From Chondrilla cf. caribensis (taxonomy: Eukaryota; Porifera; Demospongiae; Chondrillida; Chondrillidae): a stretch of DNA of 64,000 bases. Below the pieces are notes generated by a model, which saw only the letters and a list, made by a program, of their open reading frames with translations, was not told the origin of the DNA and ran no database searches. The position numbers and the translations under genes are program-made. Of the stretch, positions 7,801 through 60,403 are shown in pieces (positions within the stretch are counted from its first letter, which is position 1; every line of letters begins with the position of its first letter). The DNA lies in contig OZ026569.1 of assembly GCA_964020155.1 (NCBI GenBank), positions 2,162,971 to 2,226,970 on the forward strand. Reading direction: 5' to 3'.

Positions 7801-10800
7801 GTTCTTCCACTACATAATATAAGTCAAACACAATAATAAGTGCCATATTGTATATCATAATATTATGTACAAAGCAGTGTTGTGGCAATTACAGCTCACA
7901 AGTAATCAATTACGATTACAATTACTGGCCTTTTTCAAGAACCCATTACCATTACCATTACTCCGCAGCTTCAAGTAATCAATTACCATTACAACTACTT
8001 TAAGCAATTACAATTACAATTACAATTACAATTACATAGTTATTGGTGCTTCTCAATTTCTGTGGACCATGTTAACTTGAATCAATGATCTAGAATGGCA
8101 CCACATACATATGTACAAAGGTTCACCAGGTGCATGCCCCAGCCAATGATCAAAAGATGCCTGCAAAGCTCTGATAACCTGTGAGCTGTGCCGTGTGCTG
8201 TGCTGTGAGAGGTGATGTTTTAGGTCAAGGAAGCATGAGAGTACCAAGCTGATTGATTTGTACTTGTCTCCTTGGAGTATATCAGTTGCCTCTTCAAACG
8301 GTTCAAAGACCTCAACTAGCTCTTTTTTCATAGGCATTCAACTGGAACTCCCTCTTGTCTACAACCTTATCTAGTACGTCAATTTCCACAAGTTGCTGCA
8401 CCATCTTAACCCTTTTCCGGTCGCATTGCGATTTTTCGCGGTACTGCTCCCAGTCGCCAGCCACTTTAGTGGTGTAAACATTTAAGTTGTTGAAACCTTC
8501 AATAAGATGCTCATCGACTGTTTATTGGTTATAAAAATGAAAATGATTCCTTTTTCTATCGGTTGGTTTCAAAGTTGTACCTCGGCGATATGAAAAGGCT
8601 TAGAAACGATGCCTTTTATCGAACGATATTTATACGCAGGGATATATAGGAACGCAAGCCGTGTTTCATTTCCATTTGGTACGTTTAGATGATGAAAACG
8701 AAGCTTATTCGACCTAATTTATTATCTATTAAAGTATTCATGGCGTAAAAAGCTTGTTTGAGAACTATATGAAGCAGAATTCTGGCATAATCAGGCCCGT
8801 ACGCAGGCTTCACAAAAGGGGGGTTACATTTTTAGTCCAGTTCATATCCACCTGTAATCACACATGCATGCCATCACAATTATATAGATCATCATTGAAG
8901 GTTTAATATTAAGCAACACATGCAACTTATGTCTGGTCATGTCATAAATATATGTACATATGCACAGAGCTCAATAATATCTACTGTGCTGAATCAAAAT
9001 TAGCAAATTAGCTGATTCCAGTCTACATAATCATTACATCTATAATGGGGTGGTTGCATCACCTTTGTATCAGATCGAATTACTGTGAAATTTTGATCAT
9101 TTGTGCCCTAGACAATGGTGGCACTTGGACAACAGCATTATTTCATTTCAATGTTTAGACACAAAGGGGGGTTCGGTCGAACCCCCTCGAACCCCCCCTG
9201 TGTACAGGCCTGATAATTCGTTAGGTTTTTAAGATCCCGTCATTTTAGTTTGATGCGTTCCGTAACATTTTCTGTGTATTCCTACGTATAACTTCGCATA
9301 TTGCAATTTTTCTTTGCTCAAAACCGACTTTCTATAAATTGTATTTGCTTCAAACTGTACAAAAGCCTTTATTTAAGTCATATAAACTATCCATGATATT
9401 CTCAATATAAAATGAAAATGTATAGTGCGCACGACCGGGAGTTACGTGAGCCACTTAAGTGGCTTGTGACCGGCAAAGGGTTAAGCTGGGAATTCCAGCA
9501 TGTTCCATTTTTAGCAATAACTGTTTTACCCAATAATTCGTCCACCTTCTCAGTCACCAGTGTTGATTTCTGACAATGGCTAACAACTTGACCTGCCTTA
9601 AGTAGAACTGCATATATACCTTATATGCAATATATAATACTATACCCCTCATTGGGTAGAAATCTTTTCATATCCAGGGGAGCAAGGAGGAATGTAATTG
9701 CATGTAATTGTGTAATTGTGCATCGATTACACAAACAGTTGAATGTAATCAACTACCATTACAATTACTTCAGTGGAAAAATTTCAATTACAATTAAATT
9801 ACAATTACCTAGAAATGTGTAATTGATTACAACCAATTACAATTACCAATTACCATTACCACAACACTGGTACAAAGTAACGTACATAAAATTTGTCTGG
9901 ACTGTAGATGGGCTGCTTGAGTTTGGACTGGACTGTCAAACTGACACGGCAATATGTAGGACACTAACACCTTGAAAACAGCAGCAAAACATGACAATAT
10001 TTGATAAAGGCTATGATAAAGCTTCATGATTGTCTATGTTTTACAAATGTGCGGCTGATTGTACAAATGTTATACACAATCGTACAAGTGTCACACATAA
10101 CTATACAATTTTGTCACATGTACATATATGTAGTTGTACAAGTGTCACACATTATTATACAATTGTCATACATATGTGTATGTAGTTGTACAATTGCCAT
10201 ATATAAGCAAATGTGTGTAGTTGTACAAGTATCATGTCAATGTATGTATGCAGTCGTACTAGTGTCACACATTGTAACACAATTATTACTCATACATTTG
10301 CACTGTATTATATTATATATATATAATATATATAATATATAGTACTCACAGCAACATCGTAGAAGCATAACCAAACTGAATTATTGGAAAAATCCTCTGG
10401 CATGAAGCTGACGGCATTCTGGGACTGGTAAGAAAAAGTTGGTAGAAATAACATAAATACTACATTAAACAGTGACTCATATTGTTTCAACAAAAATTGA
10501 TCATACGCACTGTTCATTATTCAAAATAACATACGTACATGCAGAGGTAGATGGGTGTGTGTCTGGGACTAAATAATGCTCAAAACATGGTGGTATATCA
10601 CCGTGGCAACAAATACAGGTTCTCGCACCATTGTGCCGACAAGTACATAAAACAGTGTTAATCAGTTTATATCGACTGTCACAAAGGTACACAGGCGCAT
10701 GCAGGGGAAGAGTTCTTTGCTGAGTAGTCAAAACAAGTAAAAACGCAAATAACATGACATGGGGATGTTCAGGAACTTCCTCTTGCTGCTGCTCTGAAAT

Positions 10801-13800
10801 GGATCCAATATCCCAGCAAAGGATTGTGTGGAGAGGATTATTAACTAAATTCAAGTTTCCATTTACAATTCACATACTATTTTTCAGTTGGATTTGTGAA
10901 ATCAGAACTGTGAAATTCCACTATCACCAATGGTGCTACAGGTTGAAAACAAAATGAATTCCCGGAATTAAATCTATGAGATGGCTGTTTTTGAATGAAA
11001 TCACAAAATTTCTCCAGCACGAAATCCCCATAATACAGAATATTCAAAATCATGCGGATAATATTATAGTAATCTCACTCCATTCACTGCTTTCGAAACA
11101 TTAACACATCCATATGAAGGATTCTGTGCGTCTACCACCAATGAGATATTCACAATAGCATCAACAGGTCCTGTTGCAGTAGTGCATAATAAAAGGGTCA
11201 GTTTTATGTCCAGCTGGTAAATATGTACATACGAACAACCATGTCAATGAATACAGTCGGAAAACTTGGATATCATGCAATGATCACATAGGACTTGTTA
11301 TATACAGTACATGTACAGTAGAACTGTGGTTACTTTCAGTTGCTGCAGTATGGATGTGAACAACACTTATCAGCTCACCTTCATATTGCCATGATACAGT
11401 AACATTGGGTGATTTATCTTTGAGCTCAGTAAAGACAACTGCTAAGTTGCTAGGCGGATTTGGATCTAAATTACAGTCAAAACAACACTCTTACATCACC
11501 ATGGCAACTAATACAGACTCTTATAGCAGTGTGGTGACAAGTACTTGAAACACTGCTAATAAATTTTAGATGTGCACTTTCACAAAGGAACATACATGGA
11601 GGGAAGAAAGAAGCTATTGCTGAGTAGTCAGACATTCCGCATTCGTTGATGACAGCCAAAGAGACATTGTAACAATCTGTCACTTTTAAATCTAGTTCAT
11701 TCCTTGCACCTGCATACTGTATGGATACATATTGATGGACATAAGTATTGATGCAATAGGTAGATATACACCAGTGTTGTGGTAATGGTAATTGGTAATT
11801 GTAATTGGCTGTAATCAATTACACATTTCTAGGTAATTGTAATTTAATTGTAATTGAGGTTTTTTCACTGAAGTAATTGTAATGGTAATTGATTACATTC
11901 AACTGTTTGTGTAATCGATGCACAATTACACAATTACATGCAATTACATTCCTCCTTGCTTCCCTGGATATGAAAAGATTTCTACTCACTGAGGGATATA
12001 GTATTATATATTGTATTAAGGTATATATGCAGTTCTATGTAAGGCAGGTCAAGTTGTTAGCCGTTGTTGGGGATCAACTCTGGCGATTGAGAAGGTGGAA
12101 GAATTATTGGGTAAAACAGTAATTGCTAAGAATGAAACATGCTAGAATTCCCAGCTGAAGGTGGTGCAGCAACTTGTGGAAATTGATGTAGATAAGATTG
12201 TGGATAAGAGGGAGTTCCAGTTGAATTGAGAGAACCCCTTGAGTATTGGCAATTAAAAGCCACTGAATACCCTTTGCTTGCTAAGCTAGCAAGTACGGTG
12301 TTCACTGTGCCTGCAACAGCTGCACTGGTGGAACGTGTTTCAAGTCAGGCTAGAAAAATTTTAAATCCACTAAGATGTCGCATGCTACTTAGAAACATTA
12401 CTATTTATGAAAATTAACTCTCATTTTATGTAACTACTATGTAATTGCAATTGTAATTGCTTAAAGTAGATGTAATGGTAATTGATTACTTGAATCTATA
12501 GAGTAATGGTAATGGTAATGGGTTCTTGAATTAGCCAAGCAATTGTAATCGTAATTGATTACTTGTGAGCTGTAATTGCCACAACACTGAAATACACATG
12601 TATGTACATCAACAAACACACGTATCAATGTGTATGAGTAAGCAGGCATAAGCAACAGAACATGAACTCACAAATAGCTGATAGTTCACCACTTGTGAAG
12701 ATAAGTGAACAGACTTGACCAATATCACTTGTGTGTCATTGCTAGAAACTTCACTGTTCTGCTCAGTGAGGGATAAAGGGATTCCTTTGTCTAAGACATC
12801 TGTGTTGAAGGGTAACAAGAGGATTCCATTCTCAATAGACAAATTGGGAGACTCTGATGGGGTATCGGGTGTGGAGCAGGAGTTGTAGCCAAGGAGGGGA
12901 CAATCCACTGGAAGCTAAATTGAAAATGAAGGAGGCTCGGTCCATATAAATGCAATATATAAGAAATGTGATATCAACACATGAAGAAATGGAAAATGAC
13001 GTAGGTGAGTGGTTGTCCATACAGCCTGCACTTTGTGGTCATTAGTGTTTGCTAACACAATGGTTATTATACTCTCCATGTGCTGAGACACATTGTTCAT
13101 CAAACTGCGCTTGTTTCTTGTCAGATGTGTCAGACGAACCAGGTGTTGGAAGCATCATGGGGGATCCTCCACCACTCAATGAAGGTAAATCATGAGTGTT
13201 GGGTGCATGTAGGTCTTGGGACCAGGTGTCGAATAAACCATGTGTTACCATACATACTACAGTGTACTTTGCACAGGCGAAAATGTAGCCACAATCAACT
13301 TTGGCCGGAACGACCGGTGACATCATAGTACATATCCACATCCCACCAAACTCTATTACATAACAAATTACGACTACACACGGCATTACAGTACAATGAT
13401 ATTATATTACCCATCTCCGACATACAGTCTGTATTATACAGAGAATGATACACAACACAAACATGGTACAATACTATACTATAATTTGAAGAACTCACCG
13501 TACTATTGGCTGTGTCACCAGGAGAATGAACACAGCACCTGCTTATGCAAGACTCCTTTTCCAAGTCGGTATTTAATTCCTGTAATCGATGTCAAATAAA
13601 TTGAAAATGACCACAAATCAAACTGTTCAGGTGGAGTGGAAGTGCTTCCCATCAATAATATAATATAGCTTGGTTCAAGTTACATGCCCATCAATATATA
13701 ACTATCTATGAACAAATCGGTGAGTATGAATGTGAGCTGGATCAATCCGTCCTACATTACTTCGTGACTGACATAACAGTCAATGTACTAGGTCAGTTTG

Positions 13801-14373
13801 GTCTATGTCAAGGCAGTTTCATAATGTCATCTCTATTTCATTCAGTGGTATCATACGTGGTGGCATGTGGCTTTAATGATCATTATTATAGCTACCACAG
13901 GAAGGTGGGTGGAGATGGCTCAAGTCATGAATCCACTACATTATGGGGTCCACTGTACTGCCTTCAGGCGTAAACAACAGGCCGAACTTGCAACAAGTAA
14001 AATTAATAGTATACGTAACGGCTATTATTGCTTCTCGTTATTACTATACAAGATAATGTAAGATTAAATACTCCAATCAAAATATTCTCTACTTGAACTG
14101 AGTATATAGCCAAATATAGATACAAAACATAGCATTATAGATCGACGCGTGTAGTCTATATAGAGAACGTATAATATTCATGATCAGAGACGACAAACAG
14201 CTAGGTAAAGGCACACTCAAATGCATGAGACTTACTGCAGCTGAACAACGTCCTCGACAAACAAGCTCACTAAAATCGACTCCCAAACTGAGACACGATA
14301 TAAAAACTACGAATAGAGATAAAATACACAGAACAGAGCCGTGATAGCCTCCCATTCTCAACCTCGAATCCAC
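1900..14373 (-). CDS. FN3-type receptor tyrosine kinase, tandem copy A
   Basis: Exons 5' to 3': 14236-14373, 13499-13579, about 13050-13350 (unsure), 12672-12907, 11596-11716, 11379-11465, 11079-11170, an unsure exon near 10700-10975, 10350-10424, 9886-9963, 7628-7809, 7482-7553, 7264-7360, 7090-7137, 6847-6925, 6586-6755, 6370-6493, 6086-6267, 4927-5188, 3822-4012, 3564-3626, 2972-3133, 2317-2534, 2197-2237, 1900-2117. The last eleven join in phase into 569 residues. Exon 1 gives a signal peptide; FN3-like segments follow (11079-11716, 7264-7809, 6370-6755). The membrane span is in 6086-6267. The kinase shows [32 protein letters not shown] and WMAPEA, so it should be catalytic at the plasma membrane. 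The ligand is unknown. A kinase insert between 2972 and 3626 separates hinge from catalytic loop. Some ectodomain exon phases are unreconciled. Confidence 0.85.
3637..3765. repeat. Intronic minisatellite (about 34-36 bp unit)
   Basis: The motif AAAATCGACAACACAATG with a TTTGTGT/TTGCGTAA spacer repeats about four times in an intron of RTK A. Copy number differs between copies: B (about 18215-18365) has an extra unit relative to C (about 32080-32200), which accounts for the local change in offset between them. Confidence 0.7.
4438..4641. mobile_element. MITE inserted only in RTK copy A
   Basis: The inverted ends TATAGAGAGAAATTTTCGTG (left) and TATAGCGGGAAATTTTTTCA (reverse complement of the right end) flank about 200 bp. 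Copies B (near 19060) and C (near 32895) lack the block at the homologous intron position and read straight through from GTGTTATA to TTCTAT, so A carries a later insertion. TA is the likely target duplication. The element is non-autonomous, with no coding capacity. Confidence 0.65.
5248..5467. mobile_element. Tc1/mariner- or pogo-like MITE in RTK A
   Basis: The ends CAGCAGGACCTCTCTATTA and CAGTGGAACCTCTCCATTA (inverted) are flanked by TA on both sides (5246-5247, 5468-5469), as in the Tc1/mariner/pogo superfamily. Inside is a 43-bp near-palindrome (5268-5310) built on CATAGACACTCTAAACTA. Orthologous insertions are at 19544-19763 (B) and 33378-33597 (C), so it predates the duplications. The A-to-C recombination switch in copy B lies inside this element. 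Confidence 0.65.
5812..6065. repeat. 18-bp minisatellite in RTK A intron
   Basis: About a dozen tandem units of GGTAGTGTCACAGTGTAT lie just downstream (transcript sense) of the membrane-span exon 6086-6267. The array is identical in B (20108-20361). In C (33924-34095) it is shorter and dominated by another unit variant, GGTAGTGTCACATTGTAC. The repeat gives long open frames in several phases, none of which is a real gene. Confidence 0.9.
8406..9484. mobile_element. piggyBac-like non-autonomous element nested in the hAT
   Basis: TTAA flanks both sides (8406-8409, 9481-9484). The ends are CCCTTTTCCGGTC and, inverted, CCCTTTGCCGGTC. The sister hAT at 11772-12589 provides an unoccupied version of the same site, where the sequence runs on as GAATTCCCAGCTGAAGGTGG. 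TTAA duplication with CCC-starting ends is typical of piggyBac. No transposase is seen. In B it spans 22696-23348 and is shorter because it lacks the inner MITE. Confidence 0.85.
8792..9212. mobile_element. 421-bp MITE nested inside the piggyBac-like element, copy A only
   Basis: The ends CAGGCCCGTACGCAGG and, inverted, CAGGCCTGTACACAGG are flanked by ATAAT (8787-8791 and 9213-9217). Copy B at 23078-23090 has one ATAAT and no insert, so this is the youngest layer, gained by A after the A/B duplication (or precisely lost from B). It holds the runs AAAGGGGGGTT and GGTTCGGTCGAACCCCC near its ends. It has no coding capacity. Confidence 0.88.
10050..10300. repeat. Degenerate tandem repeat, about 52-55 bp
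   Basis: The recurring words GTTGTACAAGTGTCACACA and CTATACAATTGTCACATG form a diverged tandem array in an RTK A intron, repeated in B (about 23914-24164). In C (about 36800-37195) four nearly identical 52-bp units have been homogenised, showing recent expansion there. Confidence 0.75.
11772..12589 (+). mobile_element. Second hAT relic in RTK A, with hATC dimerisation domain
   Basis: Termini are CAGTGTTGTGG and CCACAACACTG. Flanks ATATACAC (11764-11771) and AAATACAC (12590-12597) are an 8-bp duplication with one mismatch; C shows a single AAATACAC (38673-38680). On the plus strand 12226-12417 encodes EYWQLKATEYPLLAKLASTV followed by PATAALVERVSSQARKILN, the conserved C-terminal dimerisation region of hAT transposases. 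The element is the same family as 7875-9869 in opposite orientation, and each kept a different part of the parent transposase. The copy in B is 25636-26453. Confidence 0.92.
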
Positions 14374-14584
14374 CGAAATGCCATGTGGTCCACTGGACGT
14401 GCTTCAAATACGGAAATGGCGTATGTGTTCGTCCATAGGAGTATCTATGGTTCGTCCGGCTTGCGTCAGCGACTCAAATTTTATTTAACCATCAGCTTTT
14501 TTTCCAGAATTATTATTATAATAGAAGCACACATGCATAATACAGAAGAAATCGTATAATATCTATTGGAATATGTTTTAAATA
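14374..14584. promoter_or_regulatory. 5' flank of RTK A with a possible transposon footprint
   Basis: This stretch directly upstream of the RTK A start codon is shared with B and, for about 170 bp, with C, so it probably holds the proximal promoter; no TATA box is convincing. Relative to C, A and B have a 23-bp insertion: GTTCGTCC, then the near-palindrome ATAGGAGTATCTATG, then GTTCGTCC again (14427-14457). That is the look of an excision footprint with an 8-bp duplication. Confidence 0.5.
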
Positions 14585-16136
14585 TAATATTGGTGGTATA
14601 TCACCGTGGCAACAAATACAGGTTCTCGCACCGTTGTGCCGACAAGTACTGTCACGAAAAATATGGTCCGCTGCCAAAAACAGTCCCGGGGACCGGAAAT
14701 AGCGGCAAAACCAGTCCGTGCGGACTGGTTTTCGACGTCCTAAATGGTCCGCTTGTGCCTAAACCTAACCTAAACCATAACCCTAACCCTAAACCCTAAC
14801 CCTAACCTTAATCCTAACCCAAATCCTAACCTTAACCATTTTTGATGGTATATGGGAGACCAAATATGGTGCCGAAAAAAGTCCGGGGGACCACTCTAGG
14901 TGGGGACCACTTTTCGTATGACAGTACATAAAACAGTGTTAATCAGTTTATATCGACTGTCACAAAGGTACACAGGCGCATGCAGGGGAAGAGTTCTTTG
15001 CTGAGTAGTCAAAACAAGTAAAAACGCAAATAACATGACATGGGGATGTTCAGGAACTTCCTCTTGCTGCTGCTCTGAAATGGATCCAATATCCCAGCAA
15101 AGGATTGTGTGGAGAGGATTATTAACTAAATTCAAGTTTCCATTTACAATTCACATACTATTTTTCAGTTGGATTTGTGAAATCAGAACTGTGAAATTCC
15201 ACTATCACCAATGGTGCTACAGGTTGAAAACAAAATGAATTCCCGGAATTAAATCTATGAGATGGCTGTTTTTGAATGAAATCACAAAATTTCTCCTGCA
15301 CGAAATCCCCATAATACAGAATATTCAAAATCATACGGATAATATTATAGTAATCTCACTCCATTCACTGCTTTCGAAACATTAACACATCCATATGAAG
15401 GATTCTGTGCGTCTACCACCAATGAGATATTCACAATAGCATCAACAGGTCCTGTTGCAGTAGTACATAATAAAAGGGTCAGTTTTATGTCCAGCTGGTA
15501 AATATGTACATACGAACAACCATGTCAATAAATACAGTCGGAAAACTTGGATATCATGCAATGATCACATAGGACTTGTTATATACAGTACATGTACAGT
15601 AGAACTGTGGTTACTTTCAGTTGCTGCAGTATGGATGTGAACAACACTTATCAGCTCACCTTCATATTGCCATGATACAGTAACATTGGGTGATTTATCT
15701 TTGAGCTCAGTAAAGACAACTGCTAAGTTGCTAGGCAGATTTGGATCTAAATTACAGTCAAAACAACACTCTTACATCACCATGGCAACTAATACAGACT
15801 CTTATAGCAGTGTGGTGACAAGTACATGAAACACTGCTAATCGATTTTAGATGTACGCTTTCACAAAGGAACATACATGGAGGGAAGAAAGAAGCTACTG
15901 CTGAGTAGTCAGACATTCCGCATTCGTTGATGACAGCCAAAGAGACATTGTAACAATCTGTCACTTTTAAATCTAGTTCATTCCTTGCACCTGCATACTG
16001 TATGGATACATATTGATAGACATAAGGTAGGAATACACATGTACGTACATCAACAAACACATATATCAATGTGTATGAATAAGCAGGCATAAACAACAGA
16101 ACATGAACTCACAAATAGCTGGTAGTTCACCACTTA
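14585..16136 (-). pseudogene. Partial RTK gene fragment between copies A and B
   Basis: This block duplicates about 10590-11760 of copy A plus the last part of the exon at 12672-12907, with no signal-peptide, membrane or kinase exons. It keeps copies of the exons at 11596-11716 (now about 15877-15997), 11379-11465 and 11079-11170. It ends abruptly at 16136, where sequence homologous to the RTK 3' flank begins. It lacks start and stop contexts, so it is best read as a dead gene fragment. It lacks the hAT insertion found between the same exons in A. An identical fragment sits at 28449-30000. Confidence 0.8.
14650..14923. mobile_element. MITE with internal telomere-like repeats
   Basis: The ends TGTCACGAAAAATATGGTCC and, inverted, TGTCATACGAAAAGTGGTCC are flanked by GTAC on each side (14646-14649, 14924-14927). 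The GTAC is single at the homologous site in copy A (10648). Its middle (about 14760-14840) is a run of CCCTAA-like units. It interrupts the RTK fragment and is present identically at 28514-28787. Confidence 0.8.
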
Positions 16137-16524
16137 ATTACTGCAATATTGTCACACATGCACATGCATGCTAAGTATAAGAATAATATTATATGTACAC
16201 ATAAGTTTGTGAGGTCAACTAGTGAACTGTATTCCCAGCAATAGTATTCAATTGGATCCTTCAGGACAAACCAATCCTGCAAAGACATTTGCTGAAAGAG
16301 TATTATTTTATCTTAACTTGTGATTCACTTGAGCTCCAATAATTAACTCAGATGATTATCAATAATATAATAATATGGTAAGTTGATATGTGATTGAAGT
16401 GTATAAAAACTGCCAATAATACGCTATGTATAGTATTCATAACATAAGTTATAGGATAAAATTGTGATGAAAAGAAATCATATTGTTGTAATGATCGCCT
16501 GTATACATCGCGGCAGCAAGATAA
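16137..16524. other. 3' flank of RTK copy B
   Basis: Homologous to 1780-1899 downstream of copy A but about 250 bp longer: after GGATCCTT, B and C hold an extra AT-rich block (about 16262-16511) that A lacks. No exon is seen in it. Whether it is an insertion in B/C or a deletion in A cannot be decided from the sequence. Confidence 0.55.
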
Positions 16525-19500
16525 TCATTCTGGTTGAATGTATGGGTACAGATCATACATGAATCCCTCCAATGTTTTCTTCAGTACACTAAACTGTGGC
16601 CTGTCTTTACGGCTCAACTTCCAACAACTCAACATTAAATTGTATACTTTCTCATCACATTTTTCAGGGCACTCCAAATAATTGCCTGCCTTTACTGCAG
16701 CCAAGACATCAGAATCAGACGAAGTGGGATAAGGAAATTTACCTGTGAAATAGAAATCATTGTAAATAGACAGGATACAGGCAAAGGCTTCACTGCAGTT
16801 AATGTTTCAACATTACCACACCTTGACTGAAGAGCTCCCACAAGGTGACACCAAACGACCATCTATATGGAAAACAACAAGGATATGATACAGTAAGTAT
16901 ACAGCAAATCTGCACAATACCCTGTCGTTACAACAACATACACATCTGAAGCTTCACTGAATAAATTATCCTCAAATGCTTCTGGAGCCATCCACCGCAA
17001 TGGTTTACTGTCTGTAGGCAACTCAGCAACAACCTCAGTATTACCATCCAGGAAGCATGCAAAACCAAAGTCAGATATCTTGACAATTCCACTGGCACTC
17101 AAGAGCAAATTCCGACAGGCAAGATCTCGGTGCAATACCCCAAAAGACTGCAGGTAGTCCTAAAGTATAATGAAATGGGGGAGAACCCATATGAGATCAA
17201 TCCTTACATATCATGCGACATAACATGGTTGTACATACAACAAATAGCAGTAATATACTGTACACTACAATTTGATATCCAATACTTGTTACTTTTGGGG
17301 CAACAGATATGTATTACGTTATAGAGATTGTCAGAGTGAACTAGCTACCATAACTATGCATAGTTATAAGTATACATCTATAGTAATTCTCTAGTATGGA
17401 CTAGAATAAAGGATACAGGTAAATACCAATGAACACCAGTGAATACATTCAAAAATGTTATCATACGTGAACACAAGTGAATATACATGTGCTGGTGAAA
17501 GAGGTGAAGTAAGATGGATACAGGTCAATACAAGTGAGCAAGGGGGAATAGTTGTGAACACGATTACACAGGTGAACGTAGTTAGCATGTGCTTACCATT
17601 CCACGGTTCACTTGGATGGCAAACTTCAACAGCTGGCTGGGCTTGATAGCAATTTCAAATGGCAAAGATAATGAATTTCTTGGAAGGCTGTAACTTCTGA
17701 GGTGTATGTATGAGTCAATGCTTTTAGCTCTGTCCCTTTGGAATTCAACCAACGTCCTCTGAGACTGTCTCCTCAGCTGAATTGATGGAATTACAATTCA
17801 TGTATTATTATGTATACAATACATGTAGGAGCATGTACGTACATATATAAGTTACTGTATGTGCTGTATGTATGTACATTATGAACGTACATACGTATAT
17901 ACATACATATGCTACATATATAATACATATACCGTATAACCAGAAATATTGGCGGAAAGAATATTTGGCGGTTTGTCAAATGTACATTATACTTTACATC
18001 ATGTGTATATATCAACATATTGTATATATTAGGGGTTAACCGTATATTACTTACGTACATATGTATGCATGTATGTATGTATGTATGAATGTATGTATGT
18101 ACTGTATGTAAACTTAACTTTACCATAAACTTAACCTTACCATGTTCTGTGGATGCATGGGAGATATCATCGCTATCATGTCAGAATCAGGCTCTCCTTC
18201 ATCCTAGTGAACAAAATTGACAACACAGTGCAATTTGCGTAAACAAAATCAACAACACAATACAATTTGCATAAACAAAATCGACAACACAATGGACTTT
18301 GCATAAACAGAATCAACAACACAATGTAATTTGTGTTAACAAAATCAACAACACAATGTGTAAAAACAGTCAACAACCCGGTTAGTGAATTTCGTGTCAG
18401 AATCCACTGATATCTGATGCTATAACTCACAGCCAGGGAGGAGGACTTTAGAATATCCAGCAAATTCCCACAAGGTACCAGTTCCATGGCTATCATTGGT
18501 GGAGCATGTTCAAGTTGTAAACCAACAAGGTGAACCACATAAGGACAACTTTGAGTGGAGAGTGTCTTCAAGATTTCAGCTTCATTCAGGAAAGCCTCCA
18601 TCTCCACCTCACTGGCATTACCTACAGTACGTATAAACCGTCAAGTGGAAAAAAATTGTATCTACCACATATTGTGTAAAATTATATATTCTTATTATAA
18701 GGAATTATTGTGTGAAATGTACACTATTAACATATTATTATTACATATACATACATACATATATATATATATATAGAGTCCATACACTATAGTGCAGTAC
18801 AGTGTCTTCCATATACGTATGGTAGTATTACTAATTTTCAATTACATTAAGTATTACAGTATATGGTGAGGTACGTATTTTTTCTTATATAGTAAACTGT
18901 TCGGCATATGTACGAAAACCTCATTATAAGAACAAATGTGTGTATTGTATATACACACGCGATACATAGCATAGCCTTAAAAGAATACATTGGTACATAC
19001 ACTGCCCTACATAAGACACGTAGCCATAAAGTACAACAGTGAAAGGATTTGCTGTGTTATATTCTATAAATTTGTATGAAACTACAAACATTTGCACATA
19101 ATATGAATGGATTACAGCACAAAAAACGTATGATACATCACACACTCTAGTGTACATACGTATAACACGTGTACGCCATACATACTGTACGCATATATGT
19201 ATGTATGCACGCATCACGTACCTTTGAGCAATTTCACTGCAACAGATTCTTCTGAATAATTTTTAAATTGATCTAGTTTGGTTGGAGTCGATAGTGGTCC
19301 ATGTACCAAGGAAAAATAGACAGAAGAAAAGTTTCCTTCACCAAGTAGGTGGAAGCTCTCGGAGTTGAACATATGGAGTGGAATGATCCATCTGTCAACC
19401 ATTGCTGGTGGTAGTCTCTTGAAGTAAAGCTTGTAATTATCTTCCTTGGGGTTCAAGATGGTCTCTAATGAACTTGGATGTAACTACACATATAAAAGAG

Positions 19501-22500
19501 TACAGAATATTGTGTGTTACATTGAATCATACTACAGGAAATACAGCAGGACCTCTCTATTACCATAGATACTTTAAACTAAGTAACGTAGCTTAGAGTG
19601 TCTATGCTATTACAAACCTCTGAATTGCAGAAACCTCTATAATAAGGACACCATTCCGTGTCCCGGTACTATAGTGTATTTAATGATCTCTGAATTGAGG
19701 AAACCTCTGTAATAAGGACTAAAATTAAGGTCACAAAGTGTCCATAATGGAGAGGTTCCACTGTAATGGTATTTTCATTGCAGTGTCCCTATCAGACAAA
19801 ATATGGTTTGTTCAGACATTTATAGTACAAACAAACTAATGAATAAATATATGAGGATTCTTTAGATGGTCCAGCATGAGTAGACTGCACACGTACATAC
19901 AGTACAAGTACCACAGAGTAAACCCTAGTGTATACATTACACAGCAGGTGGTATTATGATATGTGATATGTTTGCACTGTATATACAAAGGATGTGACCT
20001 GTGAAAATTTTATTTATCTACTATACTATGGGATATTAGGGCTAACCAATGAACTTAGGATCGCTGGAAATTTTAGTGTTACATGATAAACAGTAGCAAC
20101 ACATTGTACGGTAGTGTCACAGTACAGGGTAGTGTCACAGTGCAAGGTAGTGACAAAGTGTATGGTATATAGTGTCACAGTGTATGATAGTGTCACAGTG
20201 TATGGTAGTGTCACAGTGTATGATAGTGTCACAGTGTATGGTAGTGTCACAGTGTATGGTAGTGTCACAGTGTATGGTAGTGTCACAGTGTATGGTAGTG
20301 TCACAGTGTATGGTAGTGTCACAGTGTATGGTAGTATCACAGTACAAGGTAGTGTCACAGCCCATGACATACAATACGTACGTCAGAGTGCTTTGTTAAC
20401 TGCAGTCTAGTTCGCCTCAGATGCCAAAAGACAATGATGGTAACAATGAAAACCAACACAATTCCAAGGATGACAAGTGGAACCACCACTCCAACTACAA
20501 TAGCACCAACATTGCTGGGAACCGTTGTCAGTATGCCACGGCCATCAACATCCGTCGACTCTCCTACTTCAATGAGAGAACAGGACATGTTTCACAATGT
20601 GTACGTCTGTACATACATCAAAGAAACCACATTCACACTGCTCACTAGTAGGGGCATGTACGTACTTGTATAAATTATGCGAGCTGAAGGACTCCCAGTC
20701 CCAAAGGTGTTCACAGCAGTCACACTAATAGATATATTGGTTGATGTTTCTTGAAGGATTGTCATATCAAGCACATGACTATTATTGTGCTACAAAATGG
20801 AGCCAGTAATAATGGTTATGAATATTACTATAGTTATTGACAATCATAACACAAACTGCTGAATATTAAAACGTTACTCACAATTGTCGTGTTGACCTGA
20901 GAAAAATTTCCGTATTCTCCATAAACTGTGACTGTAACTACATAGCTAGTTATATTTCCATTGGTAATGTCAGGTTCCCGCCAATTTATCTGTAGGGTAT
21001 TCCTGTCCTTTTTTGTGATGGTAACATTCAGAACACTCGATGGAGGTTCACCTACATATGAGCGTGAATAGCACAAAATGTAATTGATTAACTAGTAAGT
21101 ATTATGTTCAATTCATGCATGTACGTAACACCTTAGACTCACCTTTAGCCTCGAGTTTGTCTGTCTCGACGAGTTGAAGATAATAATAGTTTAGAATATT
21201 CCAATTCACCAAGGGGATAATCTACAATAATGAATATATAACATTCTCGTTATACATAGCTACTGTGTATAAGCATTTGAAAACATGATATATGCATATG
21301 TATGAGGTGTAGTAGTCATGTCATAATAGGTGACTAAGAATAAGAATAAGAATACTCGATATAGTCCAACTTGCTTAGTAAGTACCTCGAAGGGCACACC
21401 AAATCTGTACTTCTTATCAGAGGTGCACATGAGCTAGGGACTGAGTGAGGTGTACTAAGCAATTTGCACTGTATATTGTCCCGTTTTTTCAATCTGATGC
21501 ATACCTATCCATATATTATAGTATACAGATCAATTATTAAGTTCAACAATGCATACTACCAGCTATGTACTTGGTACGATAAACTACGGAGGCATTTTCT
21601 TTGGAGGGCAAATTATGATGAAGTGGGTCGGTAGTGGCATTGAGAAGTTTGCAAAGCTAGATGTTCTCGATTAGTCAAAGCAGTAAATTAAGTCTATTGG
21701 TTGTGATATTTAATAGAAAAGAATACTGATGCATGTCACTCCAAGTTCAAATTTGTTTCAAGAACACATTGTCTCACCATAAACATATAGCCATCTGCTT
21801 GTGGCTCCAGTTTATCTTTGAATACGACCACTTCATACTTCAACTTCCCCTGCAGTCTACAGTGTGAGGAAGAACCACCAATGATTGCAACATATCAACC
21901 CTATGAAGACCAATAGTTCTCACCGCTGGTACTTTCACGCTTTTCAATGACATATCTTTAAAAAAAAGAATTTTGAATAACCGAAGTGAATTAGGTAGAT
22001 TGTAAGTTTCAGGTACGGTCCAGCTCAGCTTCAGTGAGTAAGCAAGGCTGCTAGAGTTCCAAATTAACTCTGCTTCAGTTAAGTTAATTTTGACGGGTTC
22101 TTCCACTACATAATATAAGTCAAACACAATAATAAGTGCCATATTGTATATCATAATATTATGTACAAAGCAGTGTTGTGGCAATTACAGCTCACAAGTA
22201 ATCAATTACGATTACAATTACTGGCCTTTTTCAAGAACCCATTACCATTACCATTACTCCGCAGCTTCAAGTAATCAATTACCATTACAACTACTTTAAG
22301 CAATTACAATTACAATTACAATTACATAGTTATTGGTGCTTCTCAATTTCTGTGGACCATGTTAACTTGAATCAATGATCTAGAATGGCACCACATACAT
22401 ATGTACAAAGGTTCACCAGGTGCATGCCCCAGCCAATGATCAAAAGATGCCTGCAAAGCTCTGATAACCTGTGAGCTGTGCCGTGTGCTGTGCTGTGAGA

Positions 22501-25500
22501 GGTGATGTTTTAGGTCAAGGAAGCATGAGAGTACCAAGCTGATTGATTTGTACTTGTCTCCTTGGAGTATATCAGTTGCCTCTTCAAACGGTTCAAAGAC
22601 CTCAACTAGCTCTTTTTTCATAGGCATTCAACTGGAACTCCCTCTTGTCTACAACCTTATCTAGTACGTCAATTTCCACAAGTTGCTGCACCATCTTAAC
22701 CCTTTTCCGGTCGCATTGCGATTTTTCGCGGTACTGCTCCCAGTCGCCAGCCACTTTAGTGGTGTAAACATTTAAGTTGTTGAAACCTTCAATAAGATGC
22801 TCATTGACTGTTTATTGGTTATAAAAATGAAAATGATTCCTTTTTCTATCGGTTGGTTTCAAAGTTGTACCTCGGCGATATGAAAAGGCTTAGAAACGAT
22901 GCCTTTTATCGAACGATATTTATACGCAGGGATATATAGGAACGCAAGCCGTGTTTCATTTCCATTTGGTACGTTTAGATGATGAAAACGAAGCTTATTC
23001 GACCTAATTTATTATCTATTAAAGTATTCATGGCGTAAAAAGCTTGTTTGAGAACTATATGAAGCAGAATTCTGGCATAATTCGTTAGGTTTTTAAGATC
23101 CCGTCATTTTAGTTTGATGCGTTCCGTAACATTTTCTGTGTATTCCTACGTATAACTTCGCATATTGCAATTTTTCTTTGCTCAAAACCGACTTTCTATA
23201 AATTGTATTTGCTTCAAACTGTACAAAAACCTTTATTTAAGTCGTATAAACTATCCATGATATTCTCAATATAAAATGAAAATGTATAGTGCGCACGACC
23301 GGGAGTTACGTGAGCCACTTAAGTGGCTTGTGACCGGCAAAGGGTTAAGCTGGGAATTCCAGCATGTTCCATTTTTAGCAATAACTGTTTTACCCAATAA
23401 TTCGTCCACCTTCTCAGTCACCAGTGTTGATTTCTGACAATGGCTAACAACTTGACCTGCCTTAAGTAGAACTGCATATATACCTTATATGCAATATATA
23501 ATACTATACCCCTCATTGGGTAGAAATCTTTTCATATCCAGGGGAGCAAGGAGGAATGTAATTGCATGTAATTGTGTAATTGTGCATCGATTACACAAAC
23601 AGTTGAATGTAATCAACTACCATTACAATTACTTCAGTGGAAAAATTTCAATTACAATTAAATTACAATTACCTAGAAATGTGTAATTGATTACAACCAA
23701 TTACAATTACCAATTACCATTACCACAACACTGGTACAAAGTAACGTACATAAAATTTGTCTGGACTGTAGATGGGCTGCTTGAGTTTGGACTGGACTGT
23801 CAAACTGACACGGCAATACGTAGGACACTAACACCTTGAAAACAGCAGCAAAACATGACAATATTTGATAAAGGCTATGATAAAGCTTCATGATTGTCTA
23901 TGTTTTACAAATGTGCGGCTGATTGTACAAATGTTATACACAATCGTACAAGTGTCACACATAACTATACAATTTTGTCACATGTACATATATGTAGTTG
24001 TACAAGTGTCACACATTATTATACAATTGTCATACATATGTGTATGTAGTTGTACAATTGCCATATATAAGCAAATGTGTGTAGTTGTACAAGTATCATG
24101 TCAATGTATGTATGCAGTCGTACTAGTGTCACACATTGTAACACAATTATTACTCATACATTTGCACTGTATTATATTATATATATATAATATATATAAT
24201 ATATAGTACTCACAGCAACATCGTAGAAGCATAACCAAACTGAATTATTGGAAAAATCCTCTGGCATGAAGCTGACGGCATTCTGGGACTGGTAAGAAAA
24301 AGTTGGTAGAAATAACATAAATACTACATTAAACAGTGACTCATATTGTTTCAACAAAAATTGATCATACGCACTGTTCATTATTCAAAATAACATACGT
24401 ACATGCAGAGGTAGATGGGTGTGTGTCTGGGACTAAATAATGCTCAAAACATGGTGGTATATCACCGTGGCAACAAATACAGGTTCTCGCACCATTGTGC
24501 CGACAAGTACATAAAACAGTGTTAATCAGTTTATATCGACTGTCACAAAGGTACACAGGCGCATGCAGGGGAAGAGTTCTTTGCTGAGTAGTCAAAACAA
24601 GTAAAAACGCAAATAACATGACATGGGGATGTTCAGGAACTTCCTCTTGCTGCTGCTCTGAAATGGATCCAATATCCCAGCAAAGGATTGTGTGGAGAGG
24701 ATTATTAACTAAATTCAAGTTTCCATTTACAATTCACATACTATTTTTCAGTTGGATTTGTGAAATCAGAACTGTGAAATTCCACTATCACCAATGGTGC
24801 TACAGGTTGAAAACAAAATGAATTCCCGGAATTAAATCTATGAGATGGCTGTTTTTGAATGAAATCACAAAATTTCTCCAGCACGAAATCCCCATAATAC
24901 AGAATATTCAAAATCATGCGGATAATATTATAGTAATCTCACTCCATTCACTGCTTTCGAAACATTAACACATCCATATGAAGGATTCTGTGCGTCTACC
25001 ACCAATGAGATATTCACAATAGCATCAACAGGTCCTGTTGCAGTAGTGCATAATAAAAGGGTCAGTTTTATGTCCAGCTGGTAAATATGTACATACGAAC
25101 AACCATGTCAATGAATACAGTCGGAAAACTTGGATATCATGCAATGATCACATAGGACTTGTTATATACAGTACATGTACAGTAGAACTGTGGTTACTTT
25201 CAGTTGCTGCAGTATGGATGTGAACAACACTTATCAGCTCACCTTCATATTGCCATGATACAGTAACATTGGGTGATTTATCTTTGAGCTCAGTAAAGAC
25301 AACTGCTAAGTTGCTAGGCGGATTTGGATCTAAATTACAGTCAAAACAACACTCTTACATCACCATGGCAACTAATACAGACTCTTATAGCAGTGTGGTG
25401 ACAAGTACTTGAAACACTGCTAATAAATTTTAGATGTGCACTTTCACAAAGGAACATACATGGAGGGAAGAAAGAAGCTATTGCTGAGTAGTCAGACATT

Positions 25501-28237
25501 CCGCATTCGTTGATGACAGCCAAAGAGACATTGTAACAATCTGTCACTTTTAAATCTAGTTCATTCCTTGCACCTGCATACTGTATGGATACATATTGAT
25601 AGACATAAGTATTGATGCAATAGGTAGATATACACCAGTGTTGTGGTAATGGTAATTGGTAATTGTAATTGGCTGTAATCAATTACACATTTCTAGGTAA
25701 TTGTAATTTAATTGTAATTGAGGTTTTTTCACTGAAGTAATTGTAATGGTAATTGATTACATTCAACTGTTTGTGTAATCGATGCACAATTACACAATTA
25801 CATGCAATTACATTCCTCCTTGCTTCCCTGGATATGAAAAGATTTCTACTCACTGAGGGATATAGTATTATATATTGTATTAAGGTATATATGCAGTTCT
25901 ATGTAAGGCAGGTCAAGTTGTTAGCCGTTGTTGGGGATCAACTCTGGCGATTGAGAAGGTGGAAGAATTATTGGGTAAAACAGTAATTGCTAAGAATGAA
26001 ACATGCTAGAATTCCCAGCTGAAGGTGGTGCAGCAACTTGTGGAAATTGATGTAGATAAGATTGTGGATAAGAGGGAGTTCCAGTTGAATTGAGAGAACC
26101 CCTTGAGTATTGGCAATTAAAAGCCACTGAATACCCTTTGCTTGCTAAGCTAGCAAGTACGGTGTTCACTGTGCCTGCAACAGCTGCACTGGTGGAACGT
26201 GTTTCAAGTCAGGCTAGAAAAATTTTAAATCCACTAAGATGTCGCATGCTACTTAGAAACATTACTATTTATGAAAATTAACTCTCATTTTATGTAACTA
26301 CTATGTAATTGCAATTGTAATTGCTTAAAGTAGATGTAATGGTAATTGATTACTTGAATCTATAGAGTAATGGTAATGGTAATGGGTTCTTGAATTAGCC
26401 AAGCAATTGTAATCGTAATTGATTACTTGTGAGCTGTAATTGCCACAACACTGAAATACACATGTATGTACATCAACAAACACACGTATCAATGTGTATG
26501 AGTAAGCAGGCATAAGCAACAGAACATGAACTCACAAATAGCTGATAGTTCACCACTTGTGAAGATAAGTGAACAGACTTGACCAATATCACTTGTGTGT
26601 CATTGCTAGAAACTTCACTGTTCTGCTCAGTGAGGGATAAAGGGATTCCTTTGTCTAAGACATCTGTGTTGAAGGGTAACAAGAGGATTCCATTCTCAAT
26701 AGACAAATTGGGAGACTCTGATGGGGTATCGGGTGTGGAGCAGGAGTTGTAGCTAAGGAGGGGACAATCCACTGGAAGCTAAATTGAAAATGAAGGAGGC
26801 TCGGTCCATATAAATGCAATATATAAGAAATGTGATATCAACACATGAAGAAATGGAAAATGACGTAGGTGAGTGGTTGTCCATACAGCCTGCACTTTGT
26901 GGTCATTAGTGTTTGCTAACACAATGGTTATTATACTCTCCATGTGCTGAGACACATTGTTCATCAAACTGCGCTTGTTTCTTGTCAGATGTGTCAGACG
27001 AACCAGGTGTTGGAAGCATCATGGGGGATCCTCCACCACTCAATGAAGGTAAATCATGAGTGTTGGGTGCATGTAGGTCTTGGGACCAGGTGTCGAATAA
27101 ACCATGTGTTACCATACATACTACAGTGTACTTTGCACAGGCGAAAATGTAGCCACAATCAACTTTGGCCGGAACGACCGGTGACATCATAGTACATATC
27201 CACATCCCACCAAACTCTATTACATAACAAATTACGACTACACACGGCATTACAGTACAATGATATTATATTACCCATCTCCGACATACAGTCTGTATTA
27301 TACAGAGAATGATACACAACACAAACATGGTACAATACTATACTATAATTTGAAGAACTCACCGTACTATTGGCTGTGTCACCAGGAGAATGAACACAGC
27401 ACCTGCTTATGCAAGACTCCTTTTCCAAGTCGGTATTTAATTCCTGTAATCGATGTCAAATAAATTGAAAATGACCACAAATCAAACTGTTCAGGTGGAG
27501 TGGAAGTGCTTCCCATCAATAATATAATATAGCTTGGTTCAAGTTACATGCCCATCAATATATAACTATCTATGAACAAATCGGTGAGTATGAATGTGAG
27601 CTGGATCAATCCGTCCTACATTACTTCGTGACTGACATAACAGTCAATGTACTAGGTCAGTTTGGTCTATGTCAAGGCAGTTTCATAATGTCATCTCTAT
27701 TTCATTCAGTGGTATCATACGTGGTGGCATGTGGCTTTAATGATCATTATTATAGCTACCACAGGAAGGTGGGTGGAGATGGCTCAAGTCATGAATCCAC
27801 TACATTATGGGGTCCACTGTACTGCCTTCAGGCGTAAACAACAGGCCGAACTTGCAACAAGTAAAATTAATAGTATACGTAACGGCTATTATTGCTTCTC
27901 GTTATTACTATACAAGATAATGTAAGATTAAATACTCCAATCAAAATATTCTCTACTTGAACTGAGTATATAGCCAAATATAGATACAAAACATAGCATT
28001 ATAGATCGACGCGTGTAGTCTATATAGAGAACGTATAATATTCATGATCAGAGACGACAAACAGCTAGGTAAAGGCACACTCAAATGCATGAGACTTACT
28101 GCAGCTGAACAACGTCCTCGACAAACAAGCTCACTAAAATCGACTCCCAAACTGAGACACGATATAAAAACTACGAATAGAGATAAAATACACAGAACAG
28201 AGCCGTGATAGCCTCCCATTCTCAACCTCGAATCCAC
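16525..28237 (-). CDS. FN3-type receptor tyrosine kinase, tandem copy B (A/C hybrid)
   Basis: Exons as in copy A: 28100-28237, 27363-27443, about 26914-27214 (unsure), 26536-26771, 25460-25580, 25243-25329, 24943-25034, an unsure exon, 24214-24288, 23750-23827, 21924-22105, 21778-21849, 21560-21656, 21386-21433, 21143-21221, 20882-21051, 20666-20789, 20382-20563, 19222-19483, 18431-18621, 18141-18203, 17597-17776, 16942-17159, 16822-16862, 16525-16742. The receptor half is nearly identical to A, including both hAT insertions. The kinase half (16525-19483) is nearly identical to C: it shares the six extra residues RNSLSL in 17597-17776 and DEGEPDSD in 18141-18203. All kinase motifs ([29 protein letters not shown]) are intact. 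Expected role: plasma-membrane receptor with A-type ligand binding and C-type signalling. Confidence 0.85.
19544..19763. mobile_element. Tc1/mariner- or pogo-like MITE in RTK B, containing the hybrid junction
   Basis: Same insertion as 5248-5467. Up to about 19665 its variants match C (CCGTGTCCCGGTAC); from about 19747 they match A (CCATAATGGAGAGG, against CCATACTAGAGAGG in C). The switch therefore falls inside the element. Confidence 0.6.
20108..20361. repeat. 18-bp minisatellite in RTK B intron
   Basis: The unit array is identical to 5812-6065 of copy A, as expected from the recent duplication. Confidence 0.9.
22171..23733 (-). mobile_element. hAT transposon relic in RTK B
   Basis: The counterpart of 7875-9869, with the same ends and GTACAAAG duplication (22163-22170). 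It contains the piggyBac-like element (TTAA at 22696-22699 and 23345-23348) but not the 421-bp MITE. The transposase fragment is at 22343-22627. Confidence 0.92.
25636..26453 (+). mobile_element. Second hAT relic in RTK B, with hATC domain
   Basis: Counterpart of 11772-12589. The hATC-coding stretch is at 26090-26281. It shares the mutated left flank with A, so it was duplicated with the gene rather than inserted again. Confidence 0.92.
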
Positions 28238-28448
28238 CGAAATGCCATGTGGTCCACTGGACGTGCTTCAAATACGGAAATGGCGTATGTGTTCGTCCAT
28301 AGGAGTATCTATGGTTCGTCCGGCTTGCGTCAGCGACTCAAATTTTATTTAACCATCAGCTTTTTTTCCAGAATTATTATTATAATAGAAGCACACATGC
28401 ATAATACAGAAGAAATCGTATAATATCTATTGGAATATGTTTTAAATA

Positions 28449-30000
28449 TAATATTGGTGGTATATCACCGTGGCAACAAATACAGGTTCTCGCACCGTTG
28501 TGCCGACAAGTACTGTCACGAAAAATATGGTCCGCTGCCAAAAACAGTCCCGGGGACCGGAAATAGCGGCAAAACCAGTCCGTGCGGACTGGTTTTCGAC
28601 GTCCTAAATGGTCCGCTTGTGCCTAAACCTAACCTAAACCATAACCCTAACCCTAAACCCTAACCCTAACCTTAATCCTAACCCAAATCCTAACCTTAAC
28701 CATTTTTGATGGTATATGGGAGACCAAATATGGTGCCGAAAAAAGTCCGGGGGACCACTCTAGGTGGGGACCACTTTTCGTATGACAGTACATAAAACAG
28801 TGTTAATCAGTTTATATCGACTGTCACAAAGGTACACAGGCGCATGCAGGGGAAGAGTTCTTTGCTGAGTAGTCAAAACAAGTAAAAACGCAAATAACAT
28901 GACATGGGGATGTTCAGGAACTTCCTCTTGCTGCTGCTCTAAAATGGATCCAATATCCCAGCAAAGGATTGTGTGGAGAGGATTATTAACTAAATTCAAG
29001 TTTCCATTTACAATTCACATACTATTTTTCAGTTGGATTTGTGAAATCAGAACTGTGAAATTCCACTATCACCAATGGTGCTACAGGTTGAAAACAAAAT
29101 GAATTCCCGGAATTAAATCTATGAGATGGCTGTTTTTGAATGAAATCACAAAATTTCTCCTGCACGAAATCCCCATAATACAGAATATTCAAAATCATAC
29201 GGATAATATTATAGTAATCTCACTCCATTCACTGCTTTCGAAACATTAACACATCCATATGAAGGATTCTGTGCGTCTACCACCAATGAGATATTCACAA
29301 TAGCATCAACAGGTCCTGTTGCAGTAGTACATAATAAAAGGGTCAGTTTTATGTCCAGCTGGTAAATATGTACATACGAACAACCATGTCAATAAATACA
29401 GTCGGAAAACTTGGATATCATGCAATGATCACATAGGACTTGTTATATACAGTACATGTACAGTAGAACTGTGGTTACTTTCAGTTGCTGCAGTATGGAT
29501 GTGAACAACACTTATCAGCTCACCTTCATATTGCCATGATACAGTAACATTGGGTGATTTATCTTTGAGCTCAGTAAAGACAACTGCTAAGTTGCTAGGC
29601 AGATTTGGATCTAAATTACAGTCAAAACAACACTCTTACATCACCATGGCAACTAATACAGACTCTTATAGCAGTGTGGTGACAAGTACATGAAACACTG
29701 CTAATCGATTTTAGATGTACGCTTTCACAAAGGAACATACATGGAGGGAAGAAAGAAGCTACTGCTGAGTAGTCAGACATTCCGCATTCGTTGATGACAG
29801 CCAAAGAGACATTGTAACAATCTGTCACTTTTAAATCTAGTTCATTCCTTGCACCTGCATACTGTATGGATACATATTGATAGACATAAGGTAGGAATAC
29901 ACATGTACGTACATCAACAAACACATATATCAATGTGTATGAATAAGCAGGCATAAACAACAGAACATGAACTCACAAATAGCTGGTAGTTCACCACTTA
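28449..30000 (-). pseudogene. Partial RTK gene fragment between copies B and C
   Basis: Essentially identical to 14585-16136 at a constant offset of 13,864 bp. It includes the telomere-like MITE (28514-28787) and ends at the same junction with RTK 3' flanking sequence. It was carried along in the tandem duplication. Confidence 0.8.
28514..28787. mobile_element. MITE with internal telomere-like repeats (second copy)
   Basis: Identical in structure to 14650-14923, with GTAC flanks. Duplicated with the surrounding fragment. Confidence 0.8.
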
Positions 30001-30388
30001 ATTACTGCAATATTGTCACACATGCACATGCATGCTAAGTATAAGAATAATATTATATGTACACATAAGTTTGTGAGGTCAACTAGTGAACTGTATTCCC
30101 AGCAATAGTATTCAATTGGATCCTTCAGGACAAACCAATCCTGCAAAGACATTTGCTGAAAGAGTATTATTTTATCTTAACTTGTGATTCACTTGAGCTC
30201 CAATAATTAACTCAGATGATTATCAATAATATAATAATATGGTAAGTTGATATGTGATTGAAGTGTATAAAAACTGCCAATAATACGCTATGTATAGTAT
30301 TCATAACATAAGTTATAGGATAAAATTGTGATGAAAAGAAATCATATTGTTGTAATGATCGCCTGTATACATCGCGGCAGCAAGATAA
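30001..30388. other. 3' flank of RTK copy C
   Basis: Near-identical to 16137-16524. No exon is seen. Confidence 0.55.
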
Positions 30389-32578
30389 TCATTCTGGTTG
30401 AATGTATGGGTACAGATCATACATGAATCCCTCCAATGTTTTCTTCAGTACACTAAACTGTGGCCTGTCTTTACGGCTCAACTTCCAACAACTCAACATT
30501 AAATTGTATACTTTCTCATCACATTTTTCAGGGCACTCCAAATAATTGCCTGCCTTTACTGCAGCCAAGACATCAGAATCAGACGAAGTGGGATAAGGAA
30601 ATTTACCTGTGAAATAGAAATCATTGTAAATAGACAGGATACAGGCAAAGGCTTCACTGCAGTTAATGTTTCAACATTACCACACCTTGACTGAAGAGCT
30701 CCCACAAGGTGACACCAAACGACCATCTATATGGAAAACAACAAGGATATGATACAGTAAGTATACAGCAAATCTGCACAATACCCTGTCGTTACAACAA
30801 CATACACATCTGAAGCTTCACTGAATAAATTATCCTCAAATGCTTCTGGAGCCATCCACCGCAATGGTTTACTGTCTGTAGGCAACTCAGCAACAACCTC
30901 AGTATTACCATCCAGGAAGCATGCAAAACCAAAGTCAGATATCTTGACAATTCCACTGGCACTCAAGAGCAAATTCCGACAGGCAAGATCTCGGTGCAAT
31001 ACCCCAAAAGACTGCAGGTAGTCCTAAAGTATAATGAAATGGGGGAGAACCCATATGAGATCAATCCTTACATATCATGCGACATAACATGGTTGTACAT
31101 ACAACAAATAGCAGTAATATACTGTACACTACAATTTGATATCCAATACTTGTTACTTTTGGGGCAACAGATATGTATTACGTTATAGAGATTGTCAGAG
31201 TGAACTAGCTACCATAACTATGCATAGTTATAAGTATACATCTATAGTAATTCTCTAGTATGGACTAGAATAAAGGATACAGGTAAATACCAATGAACAC
31301 CAGTGAATACATTCAAAAATGTTATCATACGTGAACACAAGTGAATATACATGTGCTGGTGAAAGAGGTGAAGTAAGATGGATACAGGTCAATACAAGTG
31401 AGCAAGGGGGAATAGTTGTGAACACGATTACACAGGTGAACGTAGTTAGCATGTGCTTACCATTCCACGGTTCACTTGGATGGCAAACTTCAACAGCTGG
31501 CTGGGCTTGATAGCAATTTCAAATGGCAAAGATAATGAATTTCTTGGAAGGCTGTAACTTCTGAGGTGTATGTATGAGTCAATGCTTTTAGCTCTGTCCC
31601 TTTGGAATTCAACCAACGTCCTCTGAGACTGTCTCCTCAGCTGAATTGATGGAATTACAATTCATGTATTATTATGTATACAATACATGTAGGAGCATGT
31701 ACGTACATATATAAGTTACTGTATGTGCTGTATGTATGTACATTATGAACGTACATACGTATATACATACATATGCTACATATATAATACATATACCGTA
31801 TAACCAGAAATATTGGCGGAAAGAATATTTGGCGGTTTGTCAAATGTACATTATACTTTACATCATGTGTATATATCAACATATTGTATATATTAGGGGT
31901 TAACCGTATATTACTTACGTACATATGTATGCATGTATGTATGTATGTATGAATGTATGTATGTACTGTATGTAAACTTAACTTTACCATAAACTTAACC
32001 TTACCATGTTCTGTGGATGCATGGGAGATATCATCGCTATCATGTCAGAATCAGGCTCTCCTTCATCCTAGTGAACAAAATTGACAACACAGTGCAATTT
32101 GCGTAAACAAAATCAACAACACAATACAATTTGCATAAACAAAATCGACAACACAATGGACTTTGCATAAACAGAATCAACAACACAATGTGTAAAAACA
32201 GTCAACAACCCGGTTAGTGAATTTCGTGTCAGAATCCACTGATATCTGATGCTATAACTCACAGCCAGGGAGGAGGACTTTAGAATATCCAGCAAATTCC
32301 CACAAGGTACCAGTTCCATGGCTATCATTGGTGGAGCATGTTCAAGTTGTAAACCAACAAGGTGAACCACATAAGGACAACTTTGAGTGGAGAGTGTCTT
32401 CAAGATTTCAGCTTCATTCAGGAAAGCCTCCATCTCCACCTCACTGGCATTACCTACAGTACGTATAAACCGTCAAGTGGAAAAAAATTGTATCTACCAC
32501 ATATTGTGTAAAATTATATATTCTTATTATAAGGAATTATTGTGTGAAATGTACACTATTAACATATTATTATTACAT

Positions 32579-32609
<31 letters not shown>

Positions 32610-50024: not shown

Positions 50025-60403
<10,379 letters not shown>

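Follow-up and report, generated by a model that had tools for sequence, protein, structure and literature searches.

How does a gene array come by a receptor whose outer half matches one neighbour and whose kinase matches the other? The window analysed here, a stretch of 64,000 nucleotides from the sponge Chondrilla cf. caribensis, sits in a 4.37-Mb contig of a genome assembly of 137 Mb in 37 contigs. Its first 40 kb hold three receptor tyrosine kinase (RTK) genes that follow one another as A, B and C, all on the minus strand. B, the hybrid, has an ectodomain and membrane-span (TM) exon of A type and a kinase of C type, and its parents A and C flank it in the same orientation. From these sequences we conclude that B very probably arose through one recent unequal exchange in the same intron of neighbouring RTK genes A and C.

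Gene A runs on the minus strand from a presumed start Met at 14355 to a stop ending at 1900 (1900..14355, ectodomain exons modelled in part), B from 28219 to 16525 (16525..28219) and C from 40435 to 30389 (30389..40435). In B the kinase gives a PF07714 match (E 2.5e-71) and contains the catalytic residues and the DFG motif, whose customary meaning we assume here. A fibronectin type III domain (fn3, E 1.9e-7) lies N-terminal to a putative membrane span. That span and a putative signal peptide, seen as a hydrophobic stretch before the kinase and a hydrophobic start, were spotted by eye, and the layout of A and C is that of B. With confidence we model in each gene a chain of 10 exons from FN3 to a single terminal stop, and a check of AG/GT borders flagged none of the 30 FN3a-K7 exons (10 per gene; the end of K7 is the stop and stands outside the donor test). 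More ectodomain exons run up to the hydrophobic start, as candidates only upstream of FN3, and splice phases are uncertain for these 5' candidates and for x1-x4. The border check flagged x2, as cut at its acceptor, in all three copies, and clean borders are absent from x4 of C at its mapped place. An Rfam search of the window at the gathering threshold returned no matches. The database proteins closest to B (best 120 of 927 listed) reach 64% and 60% identity; these two, P0001 and P0002, are metagenome entries annotated merely as ‘serine/threonine protein kinase’.

Exon by exon, B is a mosaic. Its candidate 5' ectodomain exons, including the signal-peptide exon (24943..28265, minus strand), are A-type with one Gly-to-Ser change (26754), and each of its membrane-proximal ectodomain exons (FN3a, FN3b and x1-x4; 20666..22105, minus strand) is identical to that of A. 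The TM exon (20382..20563, minus strand) also equals A and has 5 differences from C. The first kinase exon, K1 (19222..19483, minus strand), equals C and has 3 differences from A (sites 19255, 19274 and 19385), and each of the exons K2-K7 (16525..18621, minus strand) is again that of C, with K4 holding a 6-residue stretch absent from A. Across the modelled exons, then, B is A from the signal peptide to the membrane save for one serine, and C in the kinase.

Where does B change type? In a three-way alignment of A (3300-9300), B (17900-23200) and C (31760-37000), the stretch of B from 17957 to 22150 has 200 substitution sites: 99 at which B agrees with C, 99 at which it agrees with A, and 2 private to B. 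Variants peculiar to B lie at 21291 and 21509. Leaving out the 2 private sites and 6 B=A sites within a 32-bp tandem repeat (18284-18342) gives 192 informative sites, and a single switch from C to A, after 19665 and before 19747, fits 191 of them. With labels shuffled, 0 of 10,000 trials equalled that fit, the best reaching 125/192. The first-pass annotation had reported C variants up to about 19665 and A variants from about 19747, and the diagnostic variants are indeed there, the C-type CCGTGTCCCGG at 19656-19666 of B and the A-type CCATAATGGAGAGG from 19742. It had also proposed such an alignment with diagnostic sites plotted, and the aligned sites give one switch and do not interleave. Interleaving of A and C sites in B is rejected, the exceptions amounting to just one misfit and one tandem-repeat block. 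At the misfit, 19582, C alone has a different base, and B has a 32-bp repeat unit more than either A or C. The same two differences appear again when the copies of the duplicated unit described below are compared, and we therefore read them as later changes.

The C-type sites end at 19665 and the A-type sites begin at 19747, which leaves between them a switch interval of 81 bp (19666..19746) that is identical in A, B and C. It lies within an intron of B, 898 bp long, that separates the TM exon from K1 (19484..20381, minus strand), as the first-pass annotation had it, and the junction has the same position in the same intron of both partners. Beside it, at 19221-19571, is one of the stretches where A and C are most similar, with a difference of 1-1.3% per 300 columns (median 14%), and the stretch at 20495-20970 is equally alike. 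The 81-bp tract is exceeded by A=C tracts of 183 and 151 bp, so tract length does not explain the exact place of the crossover.

The switch interval also falls within a MITE (19544..19763, ~220 bp, with inverted ends and TA flanks), and this invites the idea that the transposon drove the exchange, by causing a break or by promoting pairing. We think this quite unlikely. The MITE is present in A and C too, 98% and 99% identical to the B copy, as simply one part of the homologous intron. Between A and C it has 7 differences in ~220 sites, a level intermediate between that of the left flank (0 in ~60 bp) and that of the right flank (10 in ~240 bp). At least 37 further genomic places outside A-C match the MITE core, among 41 matches listed, and these are just ~90% like the RTK-intron element. 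We aligned 27 fetched copies; of the 13 displayed beside B most have inverted ends and TA, and the RTK-intron MITE has its left end broken by a small palindrome. With its TA target site we take the element to be Tc1/mariner/pogo-like. The fetched parts of two paralogs elsewhere on the contig, D and E, gave no MITE match. As A and C both have the insertion, it most likely entered before they separated, and it belongs to the general homology through which mispairing would have become possible. A and C also have the intron around it in common, so no causal role for the MITE is required. The proposal that the switch lies in a MITE common to all copies is thus right as to location; a causal role is rejected, since the A and C elements are about as similar as the rest of the intron, and the part played by the MITE was probably incidental.

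An unequal exchange between these introns predicts a near-identical repeat running from junction to junction, and such a repeat is present. Copy 1 of the duplicated unit occupies 5370..19665 (14,296 bp, its ends uncertain within the 81-bp identical tract) and copy 2 occupies 19666..33499 (13,834 bp). Compared as 5370-19746 against 19666-33580, they differ by 10 substitutions in 13,913 aligned columns (0.072%; 9 transitions and 1 transversion) and by 4 indels of 6, 426, 32 and 2 bases, with no single-base homopolymer indels. A and C themselves are far more diverged along the same genes, by at least 1% and at the median 14% per 300-column window, gaps counted. The near-identical tandem period of about 13.8 kb for which unequal crossing-over had been offered as explanation is borne out as a repeat of ~13.9 kb, and the same process very probably accounts for the origin of B. 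Repetition of the unit from junction to junction is what a single tandem duplication would leave, with the two introns as its ends and B at the new junction.

The length gap between the unit copies consists of a 426-bp piece in copy 1 and the three small indels. This piece (8787..9212) occurs in copy 1 only, with ATAAT on both sides, as expected of a transposon that entered A after the duplication; it might instead have been lost from B or be an allelic variant. The two sides of the B junction look, on an uncalibrated scale, about equally young: the kinase side (16.5-19.67 against 30.4-33.5 kb) has 1 substitution (19582) and 2 repeat-type indels, and the ectodomain and spacer part, the remaining ~11 kb of the unit, has 9 substitutions and 2 indels.

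Could B have arisen in two steps, by duplication of the whole of A followed by gene conversion in which C overwrote the kinase half? Conversion seems to operate in this RTK family, as a kinase block common to A, D and E suggests (see below), but here its tract must cover the sequence from 19.67 kb through the entire kinase and beyond. Equal youth on both sides would also be needed, whereas the unit is continuous and of very low divergence throughout, so that one event suffices. On the strength of that continuous unit we reject duplication of the whole of A with later conversion, to which we attach very little probability.

Under a single exchange, the ancestral chromosome would have had two RTK genes, A and C, arranged head to tail. 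One chromatid would have mispaired, the TM-to-K1 intron of A lying against that of C, and exchange there would have yielded A, the duplicated ~13.9-kb stretch and C. B would stand at the new middle junction, with the signal peptide, ectodomain and TM exon of A followed by the kinase exons of C. We infer the crossing-over itself from the pattern that it would leave, and a replication-based tandem duplication by template switching, as opposed to crossing-over between homologues or sister chromatids, would give an identical product. Template switching usually relies on microhomology, whereas the junction in B joins exactly homologous positions amid hundreds of bases of A/C similarity, as homologous recombination predicts, and we consider a replication-based origin highly improbable.

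So, is B a real gene? The main remaining rival to a real hybrid is an error of haplotype or assembly, in which the true chromosomes carry A and C only and the assembler looped, or fused haplotypes, at the shared intron and so invented B. The near-identical A/C stretch at the junction could yield exactly such a structure through a graph loop, and the difference of 0.07% between unit copies is low enough for allelic variation. Yet a pure loop would produce identical copies, and these are separated by 10 substitutions, 9 of them transitions. The 426-bp piece flanked by ATAAT is in one copy only, single-base homopolymer indels are absent, and the contig spans 4.37 Mb. A genome search with 16500-20500 gave, among the 50 matches listed, A, B, C, D/E, MITE copies and a few short fragments, with no separate haplotype copy. 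These arguments bear on a simple loop rather than on mixed haplotypes, and they come from a single assembly. Taken together they make an artefact unlikely in our judgement, and B is most likely a real gene, a clean young hybrid made by a known process.

What would such a gene encode? The splice borders and reading frame of B are intact from FN3 to the stop. An exchange in a homologous intron keeps splice phase and frame, and B thus most likely encodes a working receptor. In this prediction of its expression and function, the receptor would sense the ligand of A and signal through the less altered kinase of C. Within the 548-residue modelled part, A and C differ at 9 pre-kinase residues and, in K1-K7, at 7 residues and a 6-residue indel; B has the A state at 9/9 of the former and the C state at 7/7 of the kinase substitutions and at the indel. 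Eight further ectodomain exons contribute 25 non-synonymous and 12 synonymous changes between A and C (1 of the 25 precedes the presumed start Met in the signal-peptide exon), and the substitution counts exclude x4, in which indels separate A from C. Seven of the eight further exons are the same in B as in A, and the eighth has the single Gly-to-Ser.

Non-synonymous and synonymous changes between A and C number 34:14 in the ectodomain and TM against 7:13 in the kinase (Fisher p = 0.013), which marks the kinase as the half under stronger constraint. When D and E serve as outgroups, the 17 kinase changes covered (K3 and the 6-residue indel left out) divide into 11 derived in A, 4 derived in C and 2 ambiguous. 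D and E also have residues where A lacks six; kinase residue 235 of B is a contrary case, at which both share the state of A. B would thus couple the outer part of A to the less altered kinase, that of C. The claim of a receptor with the extracellular part of A and the kinase of C is upheld by the exon identities, but the parents are two closely similar proteins, and the predicted protein change in B is modest.

Exchange in this family may reach beyond the array. Paralogs D (2027.5-2032 kb) and E (2043.5-2049 kb) lie on the same contig, ~116-137 kb away. The 3' kinase block of A, comprising K5-K7 and two 79-bp introns (1913..2544, minus strand), is nearly identical to theirs, with 96-97% identity over 632 aligned bp (D 2027.5-2028.2 kb, E 2043.4-2044.2 kb). 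The two 79-bp introns differ between the clusters at 1-4 of 79 sites, and the intron next to them upstream, with differences at 54 of 86 aligned sites, is in effect unalignable. So abrupt a boundary suggests that the kinase end underwent gene conversion between clusters; that constraint kept the introns alike is the weaker explanation. P0001 and P0002 show the same pattern: their last 133 alignment columns have no difference, and before the kinase they agree at only 53 of 211 columns (first five 50-column blocks summed), though chimeric assembly of the metagenome entries could possibly produce this. We entertain, tentatively and with more doubt than conviction, the view that the RTK family is a module-swapping array in which ectodomains diverge fast and kinase halves, kept alike, are re-dealt between genes by repeated crossing-over and conversion, so that new pairings are frequent. 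B would be the newest case, the K5-K7 block another, and P0001/P0002 would be a third. The genome has many more kinase matches to PF07714, often clustered, on contigs C3, C5, C10, C14, C15 and C20, with at least 156 matches counted.

The window has several other features. A 1.1-kb block with FN3-like exon pieces at 10638-11745 is repeated at 14920-16026 with 98.8% identity, and again in the second unit copy; the fibronectin-like fragment at 14.9-16.1 kb apparently sits between A and B. A 327-aa open frame past the 5' end of C (41649-42632) resembles by eye the end of a non-LTR retrotransposon polyprotein and has no Pfam match at E 0.01. The same threshold gave no Pfam match for a glycine-rich open frame of 428 aa at 51449-52732. 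Its listed homologs, of up to 86% identity, are on long contigs, and several more distant ones carry PF12810. The 428-aa protein itself is on at least 2 contigs listed, the longest of 1.08 Mb, and hence another assembly or haplotype of the genome may exist. A tandem-repeat array at 56944-57525 has related stretches on either side (53105-53380 and 61926-62221), one of them in the opposite orientation.

How does B compare with known hybrid genes? It is an ordinary example of hybrid-gene making in gene arrays. In a literature search with most subscription journals outside its scope, nothing listed described a comparable hybrid in an RTK array like this one. The Xa21 receptor-kinase cluster of rice is similar in being an array whose members recombine and in which transposons have inserted; it differs in that its members are plant LRR receptor kinases and not animal RTKs. 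The chimeric spiggin genes of sticklebacks are tandem paralogs, as in the A-B-C array, but they encode a secreted glue protein, and L1 elements are proposed there as hotspots, whereas the MITE of the RTK array looks incidental (PMC4989455). In the RCCX chimeras of CYP21A1P/CYP21A2 and TNXA/TNXB, unequal crossing-over of tandem modules leaves a hybrid at the junction, much like B; the best-known hybrid there comes from a 30-kb deletion, and the RTK array is a duplication product with both parents retained (PMC11542561). Evolution of RTKs by extracellular domain shuffling likewise joins a kinase domain to another extracellular part, but that work treats differing domain architectures across holozoan evolution, whereas B reflects a recent exchange of halves between near-identical paralogs (PMC8662651).

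In B, a receptor very probably born of recombination is seen soon after its origin, with both parents present, the junction placed within 81 bp and few later changes. As such it is a ready natural test of whether ectodomains and kinases are interchangeable, and of the rate at which new pairings arise in tandem RTK arrays. B gains interest only if repeated module exchange in the RTK family is confirmed; should exchange prove frequent, gene trees built from kinases only would mislead on receptor history in this group.
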